A stretch of 64,000 nt of DNA from Saccharothrix ecbatanensis (lineage in GTDB: Bacteria > Actinomycetota > Actinomycetes > Mycobacteriales > Pseudonocardiaceae): the NCBI RefSeq assembly GCF_014205015.1, contig NZ_JACHMO010000001.1, positions 2,356,001-2,420,000 of the forward strand. Reading direction: 5' to 3'. Positions 4,608 through 10,532 of this stretch are shown piece after piece. The position numbers and the translations under genes were made by a program. How positions within the stretch are numbered: the first letter of the stretch is position 1; each line of letters starts with the position of its first letter. The notes beneath the pieces were generated by a model. That model searched no databases. It was not told the DNA's origin and saw nothing but the letters and a program-made list of their open reading frames with translations.

Positions 4608-4647
4608 GAGAGATGATCAGCGGGGAACACGGGGGTGAGCGGGTCCA

Positions 4648-5727
4648 GTGAAACGCCGGTTGTCCATCGGCTTGGCCGTGGTGTTGTTGGCCGCCGTCGT
4701 CGCGGTGGTCGTGTGGGGTCGTTCGGACGACGCCGAGGGCGGCGAAGCGGGCGACCTGACCGTCGTGCGCGGCGTCATCGGGTCGGAGAAGCTGGCCTTC
4801 TTCAGCGATCAACGCGTGGTCGACGCGTTCGCCAAGCAAGGTCTGAAGGTAGAGGTGGACACGGCCGGCTCGCGGCAGATCGCCACCTCCGTCGACCTCG
4901 GCAAGTACGAGTTCGCGTTCCCGTCGTCCTCGCCCGCCGCGCAGAAGATCCAGCGCGACCGCAAGACGACCGCCGCGCACACGCCGTTCCAGTCGCCGAT
5001 GGCCGTGGCCACGTTCGAGCCGATCGTCCAGCTGCTCCAAGCGGCCGGTGTGGTGGCCAAGGGTCCGGGCGACTACCTGGTGCTCGACGTGGCCAAGTAC
5101 CTGGAGCTGACCAAGGCCGGCACGCGCTGGGACCAGCTGCCCGGCAACACCGCCTACCCGGCCCGGAAGAACGTCCTCATCACCACGACGAACCCGGCCG
5201 AGTCGAACTCCGCCGCGATGTACCTGTCGATCGCGTCGTTCGTGGCCAACGGCAACACCGTGGTCGGCACGCCGGAGCAGGAGGCGGCGGTCCTGCCCGA
5301 CGTCGCCCGGCTGTTCCGCGACCAGGGCTACACGCAGAACAGCACCGAGGGCCCCTTCGAGGACTACCTCGCGGCCGGCATGGGCAAGACGCCGCTGGCG
5401 CTGATCTACGAGTCCCAGTACCTCGATCGCGTGGTGCGCGCCGACGGCTCGATCCGCCCGGACATGCGCCTGCTCTACCTCGCCCCGACGGTCTACTCGA
5501 AGCACACGCTGGTCCCGTTGTCGGACAAGGGCGACCAGGTCGGCAAGCTGCTGACCACCGATCCCGAACTGGGCAAGCTCGCCGCCACCTTCGGCTTCCG
5601 CACGAGCGACCCGCGGCTGTTCGCCGAAGTGGTGGGGGACAAGGCGCCCGCCGACCTGGTGGACGCGGTCGAGCCGCCGTCCTTCGAGACGCTGGAACGC
5701 CTGCTCGACGCGGTCGGGAAGTGGTGA
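4648..5727 (+). CDS. Substrate-binding-protein-like, first gene of TelA operon
   Basis: 359 residues with an N-terminal membrane anchor or signal (SIGLAVVLLAAVVAVVVWG, about residues 6-24) and no lipobox. The remainder resembles a type 2 periplasmic binding fold: GVIGSEKLAFFSDQRVVDAF near the mature N-terminus, FPSSSPAAQKI and ITTTNPAESNSAAMYLS in the ligand region. No transport permease is adjacent. The gene ends in Trp-TGA at 5725-5727, where an IS200/IS605-type element begins; the ancestral next codon would have been the ATG of telA. Role unknown; in this family pairing it probably senses or binds a ligand outside the membrane for the TelA/VWA proteins. Confidence 0.7.
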   Translation: MKRRLSIGLAVVLLAAVVAVVVWGRSDDAEGGEAGDLTVVRGVIGSEKLAFFSDQRVVDAFAKQGLKVEVDTAGSRQIATSVDLGKYEFAFPSSSPAAQKIQRDRKTTAAHTPFQSPMAVATFEPIVQLLQAAGVVAKGPGDYLVLDVAKYLELTKAGTRWDQLPGNTAYPARKNVLITTTNPAESNSAAMYLSIASFVANGNTVVGTPEQEAAVLPDVARLFRDQGYTQNSTEGPFEDYLAAGMGKTPLALIYESQYLDRVVRADGSIRPDMRLLYLAPTVYSKHTLVPLSDKGDQVGKLLTTDPELGKLAATFGFRTSDPRLFAEVVGDKAPADLVDAVEPPSFETLERLLDAVGKW

Positions 5728-5870
5728 CTCCGCCCACGCCTGCAGACGCGGGCTTCCTGCGTCGGTGGCTAGGCCCCCGCGCAGAGGGCCAGCCCGGCCC
5801 TGTGCAGAACGTTCAGCGCGCCGACGCGGTCCGCGTTCTCTCGGAATCCGCACTTGACGCACTCGAACTT
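5704..5870 (-). ncRNA. Predicted reRNA (omegaRNA) of TnpB
   Basis: By analogy with ISDra2-type systems, the guide RNA covers the 3' end of tnpB plus the right end of the element, and its guide is the flanking DNA. Visible here: the stop codon region of tnpB, a 9-bp right-end hairpin (5732-5753) and terminal TCAC (5727-5724), followed by flank 5723-5704, which is the 3' end of the binding-protein gene on the minus strand. The 5' boundary is a guess. Confidence 0.4.
5732..5753. repeat. Right-end hairpin of the IS element
   Basis: GCCCACGCC and GACGCGGGC form a 9-pair stem (two G-T pairs) around a TGCA loop, ending 5 nt from the terminal TCAC (minus sense). This is the layout of IS200/IS605 right ends. 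Confidence 0.75.
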
Positions 5871-6989
5871 GGCTTGGGTGGTGCGGTTCTCCGCGCTTAC
5901 GTGTCCGCATCCTCCGGCGGAAGGCGGGCACGTGCGGGAGGTGTTGCGGGCGTCCACCGCGATCACTCGGCGACCGGCGCTCTCAGCCTTGTTCGCCAGG
6001 ATTCGGAAGAACAGCCCCCAACCCGCGTCCAGGATGCCGCGGTTCAACCCGGCCTTCGCGGCAGCCCCGTTCGGAAGGAACGAGCCCGCGTTGTCCGGAT
6101 CGGACTTGGGTGCGGGCGCTCGCGTCATGCCCGCCGTATTCAGCTTCTCGTGCCCGATCACGTCGTGCTTGGCGATCACGGCGTTCGCCGCCTTGTGGTG
6201 GTGGTCCAGGCGGCGGCGCTGGATCTTCGAATGAAGCCGGGCGACTTTTCGCGCTGCGGCCCGGTGTTTCCTGGTGCGACGTCGGATGCGTTTGGGGAAG
6301 GCGTCCAGTACACGCTGAGCGGCGGCCAGTACGTCGGCCATCGCCTTCAGGAATCGCGGGTTCTCCTCGTGGTTCCCGTTGGAGTCGGTGAAGAAGTGCA
6401 CCGTGCCCATGTCGATGCCGACGAGCGATCCGGTTGCCGGGAGTCGTGCATCCGGCACGTCGTCGCAGGCCAGGATGACGTACCAGCGCTTGCCCTCGCG
6501 CTTGACGCTGACCGTCTTGACCCGACCGTGCACGGGCCGGTGCCGGTGGACCCGGATGTGTCCGACGCCCTGCAACCGGACGCGGGTCTGACGATAGTGA
6601 GGGGCGGAGTCCCAGCGGCAGCCGTCCCCGTCCTTGGGGAACTCCACGGTGTCGAAGTGCCCGACACCCTTGAAACGCGGGTAACCCGGCGTCCGACCCG
6701 CCTTGACGCGGCGGAAGAACGCTCGCATCGCCTTGTCCAGCCTCCGCAGGGTGGCCTGCTGCGACGAGCACGACCACCGGCCTTGACGTTCGGGGTCGAA
6801 CGCCCGGATCTCCTTCAACTGTGCGGACTGATCCCCGTACCGCACGGTGGTTACCGACGGGTGGCGGTAGGCGTCGCGTCGTTCCTGCAACGCCCCGTTG
6901 TAGAGCGAACAGTGGTCCCGAAGCATCTCCGACAGCGCCTGCACCTGCTTGGCGGTGGGACGGAGGAGGAACTTGTAGGCGCGCTTCAC
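5769..6989 (-). CDS. tnpB: RNA-guided endonuclease TnpB
   Basis: 406 residues, normal TnpB length. The RuvC-like catalytic triad is intact: D193 in GIDMGTVHFF, E281 in IGHEKLN, D387 in NADRVGALNVL. A zinc ribbon lies between the last two, but its first pair is C354-x6-C361 (CPPSAGGC) instead of the usual C-x2-C; the second pair C377-x2-C380 is normal. The start is GTG at 6989 (MKRAYKFLLRPT), with AAGGAGG about 7 nt upstream; the GTG at 6995 is too close. Known TnpB proteins cut DNA guided by an RNA from the element's right end and help retain the element. It opposes the host TelA operon in direction. Confidence 0.93.
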   Translation of the reverse strand: MKRAYKFLLRPTAKQVQALSEMLRDHCSLYNGALQERRDAYRHPSVTTVRYGDQSAQLKEIRAFDPERQGRWSCSSQQATLRRLDKAMRAFFRRVKAGRTPGYPRFKGVGHFDTVEFPKDGDGCRWDSAPHYRQTRVRLQGVGHIRVHRHRPVHGRVKTVSVKREGKRWYVILACDDVPDARLPATGSLVGIDMGTVHFFTDSNGNHEENPRFLKAMADVLAAAQRVLDAFPKRIRRRTRKHRAAARKVARLHSKIQRRRLDHHHKAANAVIAKHDVIGHEKLNTAGMTRAPAPKSDPDNAGSFLPNGAAAKAGLNRGILDAGWGLFFRILANKAESAGRRVIAVDARNTSRTCPPSAGGCGHVSAENRTTQAKFECVKCGFRENADRVGALNVLHRAGLALCAGA

Positions 6990-7135
6990 AAACACACCCT
7001 CCTTCCACCCCGGTCAAAGCCACTCGATCCTTACACACACGACATGTCTGCTTACCGAGGGGAGGTGGCGAGGATGCCCGGTACAGCCAAGAACGACTGG
7101 TCCGGCCCCACAGCGGCGATTCACCCCGCAGCTCT

Positions 7136-7154
7136 GGCGACGGGGCCCCTCGCC
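7136..7154. repeat. Left-end palindrome of the IS element
   Basis: GGCGA c GGGG CCCC TCGCC, a near-perfect palindrome 5 bp from the proposed left boundary at 7159. Subterminal hairpins of this kind are what Y1 transposases bind at left ends. Confidence 0.6.
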
Positions 7155-7162
7155 GAACTGTG

Positions 7163-8314
7163 ATGGACGACTTCACCCTCACCGCGCCGGAGCCGGTGAC
7201 GCCGATCCCGGTGGAACGCGCGGCCGGGCTGATCGCGCTCGGCGACGACGTGCGCGATGACGTCGACCGGCGGGCCGGGCAGTTCGCCGAACGCCTGCAA
7301 GCGCTGGACGCCCGGTCACCGGAGTTCACCGCCGTGCTGGACGACGTGCTCGCGGTCGGCGAGGCGGACATGCGTGCCGCGGCGGGTGTGGCGGGCGCGA
7401 TGCTGGACCGCTCGGCCCGCGCCATGCGTGACAACTCGCCGCAGGTCCAGGTCACCACCTCCCTGTCCGACCTGCGCCGCACGGTCGGCGAACTGGACCC
7501 GGCCAAACTGCCGATCACCGGCCGCAAGCTGCTGAAGGTCTTCCCCGCCGGGAACGCCGCGAAGAAGGCCCTCGACCGCTACCGCGCGGCCGGTGAGCCG
7601 GTGAACGCGCTGGTGGTCGACCTGCGCGACCGCCAGGACGTGCTGCGCCGGGACAACGCCGCCATCAAGGGCGAGCGGGAGCGGTTGTGGCGGGCCATGG
7701 GCAAGCTGTCCGAGGCCGCCGCGTTCGCCGAGGCGGTGGACGCGGCGATCGACCGTCAGGCCGACGTGTTCGACCTGACCGATCCGGCGAAGGCACGGGC
7801 GTTGCGCGCGGACGTGCTGCACCCGATCCGGCAACGCCACCAGGACCTGCTGACCCAGCTCGCGGTGAGCGCGCAGGGCTACCTGGCGCTGGACCTGGTG
7901 CGCCGCACCAACGACGAGCTGATCCGTGGCGTCGAACGCGCGGTGACGACCACCGTGGCCGCGTTGCGGATCGCGCTGCTGGTCAGCGGCGCCCTGGCGA
8001 GCCAGCGGGACGTGCTGGACGAGGTCGCCGCGTTGCAGGCCACCACGGACGGCCTGATCCGGGCCAACAGCGACCTGCTGGACTTGCAGAGCGCGGAGAT
8101 CCGCCGTGCGAGCAGCGACCCGGCCGTCGCGGTCGAGACGATCCGCGCGTCGTTCGACCGGATCTACGCGGCGATCGACGCGGTCGACGGGTACCGGGCG
8201 GACGCGGTGCGCACGATGGCGGTGACCGTCGAGTCGCTGTCGGGGGAGATCCGCCGCGCCGAAGAGCATCTGCGCCGCTCGCACGACGCGACGGCGGCCG
8301 AGGGGGACCGATGA
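7163..8314 (+). CDS. telA: Toxic anion resistance protein, TelA family
   Basis: 383 residues, predominantly alpha-helical and charged, matching the TelA family length. Recognisable segments: LPITGRKLLKVFPAGNAAKK, ALDRYRAAGEPVNALVVDL, LRTTNDE-like DLVRRTNDELIRGVERAVTTTVAALRIA. TelA proteins are linked to tellurite and other membrane-active stress; the biochemical role is unsettled. The ATG at 7163 coincides with the end of the inserted IS element, whose right border replaced the native upstream ribosome-binding region, so translation may now be weakened. The following gene overlaps by ATGA at 8311-8314. Confidence 0.85.
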   Translation: MDDFTLTAPEPVTPIPVERAAGLIALGDDVRDDVDRRAGQFAERLQALDARSPEFTAVLDDVLAVGEADMRAAAGVAGAMLDRSARAMRDNSPQVQVTTSLSDLRRTVGELDPAKLPITGRKLLKVFPAGNAAKKALDRYRAAGEPVNALVVDLRDRQDVLRRDNAAIKGERERLWRAMGKLSEAAAFAEAVDAAIDRQADVFDLTDPAKARALRADVLHPIRQRHQDLLTQLAVSAQGYLALDLVRRTNDELIRGVERAVTTTVAALRIALLVSGALASQRDVLDEVAALQATTDGLIRANSDLLDLQSAEIRRASSDPAVAVETIRASFDRIYAAIDAVDGYRADAVRTMAVTVESLSGEIRRAEEHLRRSHDATAAEGDR

Positions 8315-9933
8315 GGACTGCGCTCGTGGTGACCGGGCTCGTGCTCGCCACGCTGCTGACCGGGTGCACCGACGAACCGGATCCGGCCGCGCCGGTCGGT
8401 CCGGCGGAACCGGGTGTGCTGCGGGTGCTCGCGGGCAGCGAGTTGACGGACATGCAGCCGGTGCTGGACGAGGCCGCCAAGGCCACCGGCATCAAGGTGA
8501 AGTTCACGTTCACCGGCACGCTCGAAGGCGCCGAGGCGTTGGCGAACGGAGAGGTGGACGGCAAGTACGACGCCGTCTGGTTCTCCTCCAACCGCTACCC
8601 GGCGGGCATCCCGGACGCCGCGAAACGGCTCGGCAACCAGGTCAAGATCATGAGTTCGCCGGTGGTGCTCGGCCTGTCGACGTCGTCGGCGAAGCGGTTG
8701 GGGTGGGCGGACAAGCGGGTCGGCTGGGGCGAGATCGCCGAGCAGGCCGGGCGCAAGGCGTTCAGCTACGGCATGACCGACCCGTCCGCGTCGAACTCCG
8801 GCTTCTCCGCGCTGGTGGGAGTGGCGTCCGCGTTGGCCGGCGCGGGCAACGCCGTGGACGCGGGCCAGATCACCGCGGTGACGCCGCAGCTCAAGAGCTT
8901 CTTCGGCGCGCAGGCGCTGTCCGCCGGGTCGTCGGGCTGGCTGTCCGAGGCCTACCAGCGCCGGGCCACCGGGCAGGACCCGGGCGCGCAGGTGGACGGG
9001 CTGATCAACTACGAGTCCGTGCTGCTGTCCATGAACGCGGCCGGGAACCTGCCCGAACCGCTCACCGTGGTCTACCCGAGCGACGGCGTGGTCACCGCGG
9101 ACTACCCGTTGACGCTGCTCACGGACGCCGGTGACGACGCGCGTGACGCCCACCAGCGGCTCAGTGACCACCTGCGCACGGCGGACGTCCAGCGCAAGAT
9201 CATGGAGACCACGCACCGGCGGCCGGTGGTGCCGGGTGTCGAGCTGGCGTCCGCGTTCGCGGTGCGCGACCTGGTCGAGCTGCCGTTCCCGGCCGCGCGC
9301 GACTCGGTGGACGCCCTGCTCTCGGCCTACTTCAACCAGATCCGGCGGCCGTCGCGCACGCTGTACGTGCTGGACACGTCGGGTTCGATGGCGGGGGACC
9401 GGATCGAGTCACTGCGGTCCGCGCTGGTCCGCCTGACCGGTGCGGACGACTCGCTCACCGGCCGCTTCCGCCAGTTCCGCAGCCGGGAAGAGGTGACCAT
9501 GCTGCCGTTCAACACGGCTCCCGGCGCGCCGCGCACGTTCACCATTCCCGAGGGTGATCCGCGGGCCGGGCTGGCGGAGATCAAGGCGTTCGCGGAAGGG
9601 CTGCGTGAAGGCGGCGGCACGGCCATCTACGACAGCCTGTCCCGGGCGTACGAGGTGATGGGACCGCTGGTCGCGGCCGACCCGGACCGGTTCACGTCGA
9701 TCGTGCTGATGACCGACGGCGAGAACTCGAACGGCTCGGGCCTGGCCGAGTTCCAGGCGTCGTACCGCTCGGTGCCCGAGTCGGTGCGGCAGGTGCCGGT
9801 GTTCACCGTGTTGTTCGGCGAGGGCAGCAGCGCGGAGTTGGGCATCGTCGCAGCCATGACCGGTGGCAAGGTGTTCGACGCGCGCAACGGTGAACTAGGC
9901 AAGGTGTTCCAGGAGATCCGCGGCTACCAATGA
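8311..9933 (+). CDS. Lipoprotein: substrate-binding domain fused to VWA domain
   Basis: 540 residues. A lipoprotein signal ends in LLTGC (Cys19). Residues ~35-330 form a type 2 binding-protein domain (VLRVLAGSELTDMQPVL, FTGTLEGAEALANGE, MTDPSASNSGFSALVG, DGLINYESVLLSM). Residues ~348-540 are a von Willebrand A domain with a complete MIDAS motif D355-x-S357-x-S359 (LDTSGSM), a later Thr in GGGTAIYDS and MTDGEN. It is therefore exposed on the outer face of the membrane and binds a divalent metal. It overlaps telA by 4 nt and the next gene by 4 nt (ATGA), indicating one translationally coupled operon. Confidence 0.85.
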   Translation: MRTALVVTGLVLATLLTGCTDEPDPAAPVGPAEPGVLRVLAGSELTDMQPVLDEAAKATGIKVKFTFTGTLEGAEALANGEVDGKYDAVWFSSNRYPAGIPDAAKRLGNQVKIMSSPVVLGLSTSSAKRLGWADKRVGWGEIAEQAGRKAFSYGMTDPSASNSGFSALVGVASALAGAGNAVDAGQITAVTPQLKSFFGAQALSAGSSGWLSEAYQRRATGQDPGAQVDGLINYESVLLSMNAAGNLPEPLTVVYPSDGVVTADYPLTLLTDAGDDARDAHQRLSDHLRTADVQRKIMETTHRRPVVPGVELASAFAVRDLVELPFPAARDSVDALLSAYFNQIRRPSRTLYVLDTSGSMAGDRIESLRSALVRLTGADDSLTGRFRQFRSREEVTMLPFNTAPGAPRTFTIPEGDPRAGLAEIKAFAEGLREGGGTAIYDSLSRAYEVMGPLVAADPDRFTSIVLMTDGENSNGSGLAEFQASYRSVPESVRQVPVFTVLFGEGSSAELGIVAAMTGGKVFDARNGELGKVFQEIRGYQ

Positions 9934-10532
9934 TCCGTTACCTGGGCTCGACCAAGAACCTCGTCGGCTGCGTCGGCGGTCTCGTCGGCGTGCTGCTGCA
10001 CCTGACGGGTGTGGTCGGCGGGCTGTGGCCGGTGGTGGTGGCCGGGCTGTACGCGGTGGGTGCGTTGCTGGCGCCGTCGGAGAAGGTCCGGCTGGTGCCG
10101 GTGGACGCCGTCACCGAGGCCGGGCAGCTCCGCTCGGAACTCGACTCCCTGGTGCGCGAGGTCGGCACGCAGGCGTCCCGGGTGCCTCCGTCCGCGGTGG
10201 CGGCGGTGGGTCGGATCGCGGGGGTGCTCGGCGACCTCCTCGGCCGACCCGACGCGTTGGCCGCCAACCCGGACCTGCGGCACACCGTGGTCCGCTTGGC
10301 GCGCACCGATTTGCCGTTGTCCGTGCAGACGTACCTGAACCTGCCGTGGTGGTTCGCGGTGAAGCAACGCGCGGGTGGGGAGCCGAGCCCCGGTGACGAG
10401 CTGACGACCCAGCTGGGGCTGCTGGAGGCCGAGGCGCACCGGCTGGCCGAGCGCGTGTACGCGGCGGACGTGAACCAGCAGGCCGACCACACGCGGTACT
10501 TGCGGGAGCGGGACGCGGGCGAGCCTTTCTGA
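9930..10532 (+). CDS. Small membrane protein, XpaC-like partner of TelA
   Basis: 200 residues. One or two hydrophobic helices occupy residues 8-48 (GCVGGLVGVLLHL, PVVVAGLYAVGALLA), followed by a soluble helical region ending DHTRYLRERDAG. In Bacillus and relatives a TelA homologue is paired with XpaC, a small membrane protein with a cytosolic helical tail; position and topology here agree, but sequence identity cannot be judged by eye. The ATGA overlap at 9930-9933 ties it to the VWA lipoprotein. Function unknown. Confidence 0.6.
   Translation: MIRYLGSTKNLVGCVGGLVGVLLHLTGVVGGLWPVVVAGLYAVGALLAPSEKVRLVPVDAVTEAGQLRSELDSLVREVGTQASRVPPSAVAAVGRIAGVLGDLLGRPDALAANPDLRHTVVRLARTDLPLSVQTYLNLPWWFAVKQRAGGEPSPGDELTTQLGLLEAEAHRLAERVYAADVNQQADHTRYLRERDAGEPF

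Follow-up and report, generated by a model that had tools for sequence, protein, structure and literature searches.

The current analysis concerns a 64,000-nucleotide stretch of DNA (hereafter, the window) from the soil bacterium Saccharothrix ecbatanensis (contig NZ_JACHMO010000001.1, positions 2,356,001 to 2,420,000), in which an insertion sequence (IS) of the IS200/IS605 type separates telA, a gene of the toxic-anion-resistance family, from the binding-protein-like gene upstream of it. Our principal conclusion, to which we assign a probability of roughly 0.83, is that an element carrying both tnpA and tnpB inserted 3' of a CCAT tetranucleotide lying antisense to the telA start, that tnpA was lost later, and that the actinobacterial subgroup to which this element belongs is concentrated at start codons. 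The features of the locus are as follows.

5724..7162, minus strand: whole IS200/IS605-type element, 1439 bp, left end at 7162 and right end at 5724, set from relatives' ends and congener empty sites
7163..7166, minus strand: target and expected transposon-associated motif (TAM), 5'-CCAT, read on the plus strand as the ATGG that starts telA; CCAT in 68/74 unique elements
6996..7162, minus strand: left end, scarred near 7013-7020 by the loss of tnpA, from two blastn segments against the congener G016
5769..6995, minus strand: tnpB, 408 aa, RNA-guided nuclease family (NCBIfam guided_TnpB, 2.2e-70; Pfam OrfB_IS605 and Cas12f1-like_TNB; PDB TnpB matches)
5724..5768, minus strand: right end, expected to act as 3' scaffold of the guide RNA; it has a hairpin and a terminal TCAC (GTGA on the plus strand)
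5704..5723, minus strand: predicted guide, comprising the 20 nt of flank that adjoin the right end and running antisense to the binding-protein gene at its 3' end; placed by analogy with the right-end element RNA of ISDra2
4648..5727, plus strand: binding-protein-like gene, which takes element bases 5724-5727 into its final sense codon (TGG) and its stop (TGA)
7163..8314, plus strand: telA (Pfam PF05816, 9.9e-76)
8311..10532, plus strand: next operon genes, an SBP/VWA protein (8311-9933) and a 200-aa protein (9930-10532), both joined via ATGA overlaps

The extent of the element is evident from its relatives. In an unfiltered print of the region downstream of tnpB, 32 of 38 relatives, the window included, exhibited GGAGTCAC followed by variable, unrelated flank, and the left ends of relatives mostly begin directly after CCAT; together, these right and left ends place the window element at 5724-7162. 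Both ends were located in 79 of the 153 loci with a tnpB match, yielding 74 unique elements after identical flanks were dropped, while the loci left out of this survey are mostly second-subgroup or truncated copies. The word preceding the left end was CCAT in 68 of the 74, TCAT in two and another word in four, and the right end read AGTCAC in all 73 copies with enough flank (GAGTCAC in 66). As befits a member of the IS200/IS605 family, a target-site duplication is absent and the short target lies at the left end only. The CCAT/AGTCAC geometry is found again in dozens of insertions, which makes coincidence unlikely. Two subgroups were distinguished: subgroup 1, with left ends beginning CA like that of the window (two CGG ends were counted in), and subgroup 2, with other, mostly CCC, left ends. 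Those of subgroup 1 were sought as any base followed by CATCA, a few as CCATCA, and four were set by hand; for subgroup 2, the search was for an inner motif, beside which CCAT was then looked for. Right ends were found via AGTCAC-like words. The second subgroup (many of loci L206-L260 and L265-L269) is found mostly in Streptomyces, also follows CCAT, has a left end like CCCTGATCTTGCG and includes some copies with a divergent tnpA. As a separate observation, loci L108 and L158 share an identical 12 nt after the right end and differ in their left flanks, possibly representing one site with a rearranged copy.

Empty sites provide tests of this geometry that are independent of the patterns used to find the ends. 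Joining 5723 to 7163 yields GGGAAGTGATGGACGAC, i.e. an empty site of GGGAAGTG followed by ATGG, and element-free congeners present junctions such as GCGAAGTGATGGACGAC (L008) and GGGACGTGATGGACGAC (L004). Within the genus, 17 of 25 genomes, window included, have telA, and in 15 of the other 16 telA-bearing congeners the binding-protein gene adjoins telA without an element, which upholds the original prediction that an IS split an operon here. The junction itself was displayed for 11 of these 15: it is TGATG in seven, TAATG in one, GTGA in two and a 1-base gap in one. In the six closest element-free congeners, the binding-protein gene ends without the TGG codon. It had also been predicted correctly that the binding-protein reading frame stops with TGA at 5725-5727 and that telA starts at 7163, although the element itself supplies both this stop codon and the TG (7161-7162) preceding the telA ATG; the TGATG seen today was therefore mistaken for an ancestral one, since the left end of the element contributes its TG. 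As read from these sequences, the insertion removed no host base, as had been proposed, and the binding protein gained one tryptophan codon. The second test comes from L042, a relative inserted in front of a thiolase gene within a thiolase operon. In that genus, 17 of 22 genomes have the thiolase gene and 15 loci were compared; the predicted empty site equals that of L305 in 40/40 upstream bases, 11 others are similar, and the junction is again TGATG. L314 has a different upstream sequence, still ending in TG before the ATG, and the other two loci are the element-bearing genome itself and L312, whose position was misplaced. CCATC and CATCA were rejected as candidate targets, as CCAT together with the right end TCAC reproduces the empty sites of both the window and L042.

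The loss of tnpA is documented by the congener G016, which has the same insertion with both tnpA and tnpB. Its open reading frame (ORF) of at most 150 aa upstream of tnpB, in the same direction, was read as TnpA, and the tnpA of some other relatives is annotated as IS200/IS605. The Y1 (HUH) transposase is absent from the window copy, and between the two blastn segments shared by these loci there are 398 nt in G016 vs 6 nt in the window. Since G016 has tnpA at the same site, the window copy is a deletion derivative that lost ~390 bp (about 0.4 kb). The description of the element as tnpB-only consequently holds for the window copy, but not for an intrinsically tnpB-only mobile unit.

The third component of our conclusion is the concentration at start codons. 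Each site was scored by whether the ATG beside the left end opens a coding frame, using codon usage trained on four genomes (40 stretches, each of 20 kb), and all ATGG occurrences on either strand of those actinobacterial stretches, their ends left out, served as the control. Of the 74 elements, 68 were scored (four with a non-CAT flank and two with too little flank were dropped), giving 67 distinct sites once the window and G016 were merged. Subgroup 1 (n=51) has 33 insertions at starts, five in frame inside a gene and 13 at neither, whereas the control (n=3595) has 284 starts (7.9%) and 1032 internal in-frame sites (Fisher p 1e-23). In subgroup 2, the share of starts is 4/16 (p 0.03), which differs from that of subgroup 1 (p 0.009). 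An earlier, stricter score gave 32/74 starts vs 246/3632 in the control, and within its classes the ratio of starts to non-coding sites is 28:11 in elements vs 246:568 in the control (p 2e-7). Insertions at start codons thus exceed both chance and other non-coding sites. Furthermore, pairing to the anti-Shine-Dalgarno sequence below -6 kcal/mol occurs upstream of 45% of 69 empty sites vs 20% of 3631 random ATGG. Profile scans also covered 16 downstream proteins taken from the loci scored as starts. Ten of them match a profile whose first positions align no later than residue 15, namely CydB, PepN, OtsA, two thiolases, a fumarate-reductase flavoprotein, a LysR regulator, an LLM oxidoreductase and two SDRs.

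Several observations weigh against this conclusion. Firstly, the other six of the 16 proteins scanned lend their starts no support: L050 has no Pfam match, and the profile begins late in UreF (residue 46, L261), MarR (32, L115), crotonyl-CoA reductase (33, L060), L262 (181) and, as a weak match, L124 (43). Secondly, none of seven plasmid loci, from 21 records with relatives, has an annotated start beside the left end, although the gene table is incomplete; five of the seven loci inspected belong to subgroup 2. Thirdly, the empty site of L153 (PepN) was unconfirmed, the one fairly close relative being too diverged upstream. Fourthly, a Shine-Dalgarno-like sequence is absent from the window's left end and from that of G016 also. 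Lastly, the target is partly assumed, as the left-end patterns either contained CATCA or looked for CCAT, but the two empty-allele tests do not depend on these patterns and are unaffected by the imposed words.

A stronger proposition is that an actinobacterial IS605 clade is specialised to insert between the ribosome-binding site and the start codon, with a target antisense to ATGG, a right end giving the stop, and a left end giving TG and often a Shine-Dalgarno sequence, such that operon junctions stay translatable. We advance this only tentatively, and somewhat short of even odds. When left ends are read toward the gene, anti-Shine-Dalgarno pairing falls below -6 kcal/mol in 26/51 of subgroup 1 and in 0/16 of subgroup 2. 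Whether these sequences serve ribosomes is evenly balanced against the possibility that they are by-products of a small hairpin (CCT-loop-AGG) beside the cut site, required by the transposase, which could account for part of them. CCT-N3-7-AGG occurs in 27/51 left ends, including 18 of the 26 with a Shine-Dalgarno-like sequence, but the remaining eight have no hairpin; likewise, none of 300 shuffles gives a mean pairing energy as low as that over the 17 left-end clusters, which speaks against a by-product, as does the restriction of the Shine-Dalgarno-like sequence to subgroup 1. Exact words of at least four bases lie 3-7 nt from the ATG in 35/51, but these ends are related. Insertions at starts number 19/26 among copies with the Shine-Dalgarno-like sequence and 15/26 among those without (window and G016 counted apart), so it is not a clear predictor of the site, a point in favour of the hairpin reading.

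The start codons of the subgroup may be either targeted or merely tolerated. Insertion at any CCAT, with the excess at start codons produced by selective loss of other insertions, is a serious contender that we rate slightly below an even chance. The target is only four bases long, and internal in-frame sites are rare among insertions (5/51 vs 1032/3595), a rarity indicating that selection acts. However, the excess of starts over non-coding sites and the difference between two subgroups sharing the same CCAT target, both given above, speak against it.

The TnpB retained in the window has the RuvC D/E/D residues, in the motifs GIDMG, GHEKL and NADRVG, and a zinc finger. The finger exhibits extra residues, CPPSAGGC instead of CxxC, as it does in G016, two Streptomyces relatives and one from Actinomadura among the matches listed. 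No other tnpB of this kind is present in the window genome (G000), where 16 other matches share 27-40% identity; one of these distant matches has an internal stop. Three Thermus phage records were matched in a phage collection, at <39% identity. In excerpts of PMC8612924 and PMC11870625, TnpA is described as acting 3' of the target, where it cuts and rejoins single strands, and cleavage of the empty allele beside the same motif is ascribed to TnpB. By analogy, the window TnpB with its catalytic motifs is a predicted nuclease that could still guard its site, while the absence of tnpA leaves the window element immobile by itself unless a TnpA acts from elsewhere. The predicted guide differs at one position from the empty alleles in G014 and G005, at three to six from those in G015, G004, G009 and G017, and at 8-12 from those in the three more distant congeners compared; the single mismatch to G014 and G005 makes homing conceivable. 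In the right-end hairpin, both-sided changes occur in 3 of 12 predicted pairs (consensus over 13 sequences, the window's included), and neither window end folds clearly better than shuffles as a single DNA strand (z 0.52 and -1.10). An Rfam search of 5500-7400 gave no match, sigma-70 and terminator scans of 5600-7300 gave no site, and the binding-protein-like gene matched nothing in Pfam or NCBIfam. An antisense ORF at 4635-7163, ending at the TGA before telA, is judged to be a putative composition effect.

It is also quite possible, though we would not put it at even odds, that the window and G016 do not owe their shared insertion to a single inherited event, the element having instead been copied between species into the same site, e.g. 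by TnpB-guided homing. In the tree of the telA locus, the window pairs with the element-free G014 (support 100/100), whereas in the rpoB tree G014 pairs with G016 (99/95), and these pairings place the element in two lineages that are non-sister on either tree. Between the window and G016, four-fold degenerate sites differ at 22/213 positions in tnpB vs 72/437 in two neighbouring genes (p 0.043, or p 0.014 with a third gene added), which is weak evidence for later transfer rather than for one old insertion with losses, and the predicted guide nearly matches the G014 and G005 alleles, as noted above. On the other hand, one old insertion followed by precise losses fits the pattern too, the difference in divergence is weak, and no clear G016-type recombination tract was found within about 1 kb of the element. 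The conflict between the telA and rpoB trees for G000, G014 and G016 itself suggests recombination within the genus, and ~1200-1700 nt upstream of the insertion, G014 is sharply unlike both the window and G016, perhaps because another gene lies there.

The proposal made originally, a 1436-bp element bordered by a duplicated GTGA with GTGGTGATG as the ancestral junction, can practically be set aside: GTGA does stand at both borders (5724-5727 and 7160-7163), but this join is 3 bp too long, its extra GTG being absent from all 11 element-free junctions displayed, among them those of the six closest congeners, and at the left border of most other copies CCAT is present without GTGA. Alignment to element-free relatives, the check suggested with that proposal, thus bears out the insertion and the TGATG overlap while shifting the boundary to 5724-7162. 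The overlap was likewise only partly as described: it is the empty-site junction, but it does not match the next junctions of the operon (8311-8314 and 9930-9933), which are ATGA overlaps.

Returning to a start-codon insertion 3' of CCAT, the following course of events is probable. By analogy with known members, the element, then with both tnpA and tnpB, would have inserted by single-strand peel-and-paste directly 3' of CCAT on the strand opposite the operon, inside the TGATG stop/start overlap. Its right end, GTGA on the operon strand, closes the upstream frame as TGG TGA at TG|ATG with one extra residue, and its left end, beginning with CA, restores TG before the ATG. With the upstream frame closed and TG restored, both coding frames survive, and the native upstream context of telA is replaced by the element, as originally predicted. 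The window lineage later lost tnpA by internal deletion and kept tnpB with its catalytic motifs, and the predicted guide would match the empty allele.

If correct, a simple mobile element avoids harm by landing at start codons and bringing translation signals along. The locus also provides a TnpB from nature whose predicted TAM, CCAT, differs from the TTGAT of ISDra2, and it illustrates clearly the loss of tnpA and retention of tnpB at a single site. Among the titles and abstract openings listed in searches of open-licence PubMed Central (PMC) papers, none reports a CCAT target or start-codon insertion by this family, and TnpB, CCAT and TAM co-occurred as whole words in none of the papers searched.

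Among known systems, ISDra2 and IS608 resemble the G016 copy in their tnpA/tnpB layout and the present element in inserting 3' of a short left-end target without target duplication; the TnpB of ISDra2 even has the same length as that of the window, 408 aa. Their targets, according to an excerpt of PMC8612924, are TTGAT and TTAC, respectively. The present element differs from both in its CCAT target, the concentration of insertions at start codons and the absence of tnpA from the window copy. In the tnpB-only derivatives, which we take to be those labelled IS1341-like, likewise only tnpB is left between recognisable ends, but here a full tnpA and tnpB copy at the same congener site reveals the origin. 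IStrons are described, in an excerpt of PMC4227781, as mobile elements with a feature that renders their insertions harmless to the host. Whereas IStrons splice out as RNA, the present element would keep reading frames through its place of insertion and its end sequences. TnGBS and other promoter-targeting elements sit upstream of promoters; their insertion is likewise tied to a gene-expression signal, while that of the present element lies directly at the start codon.

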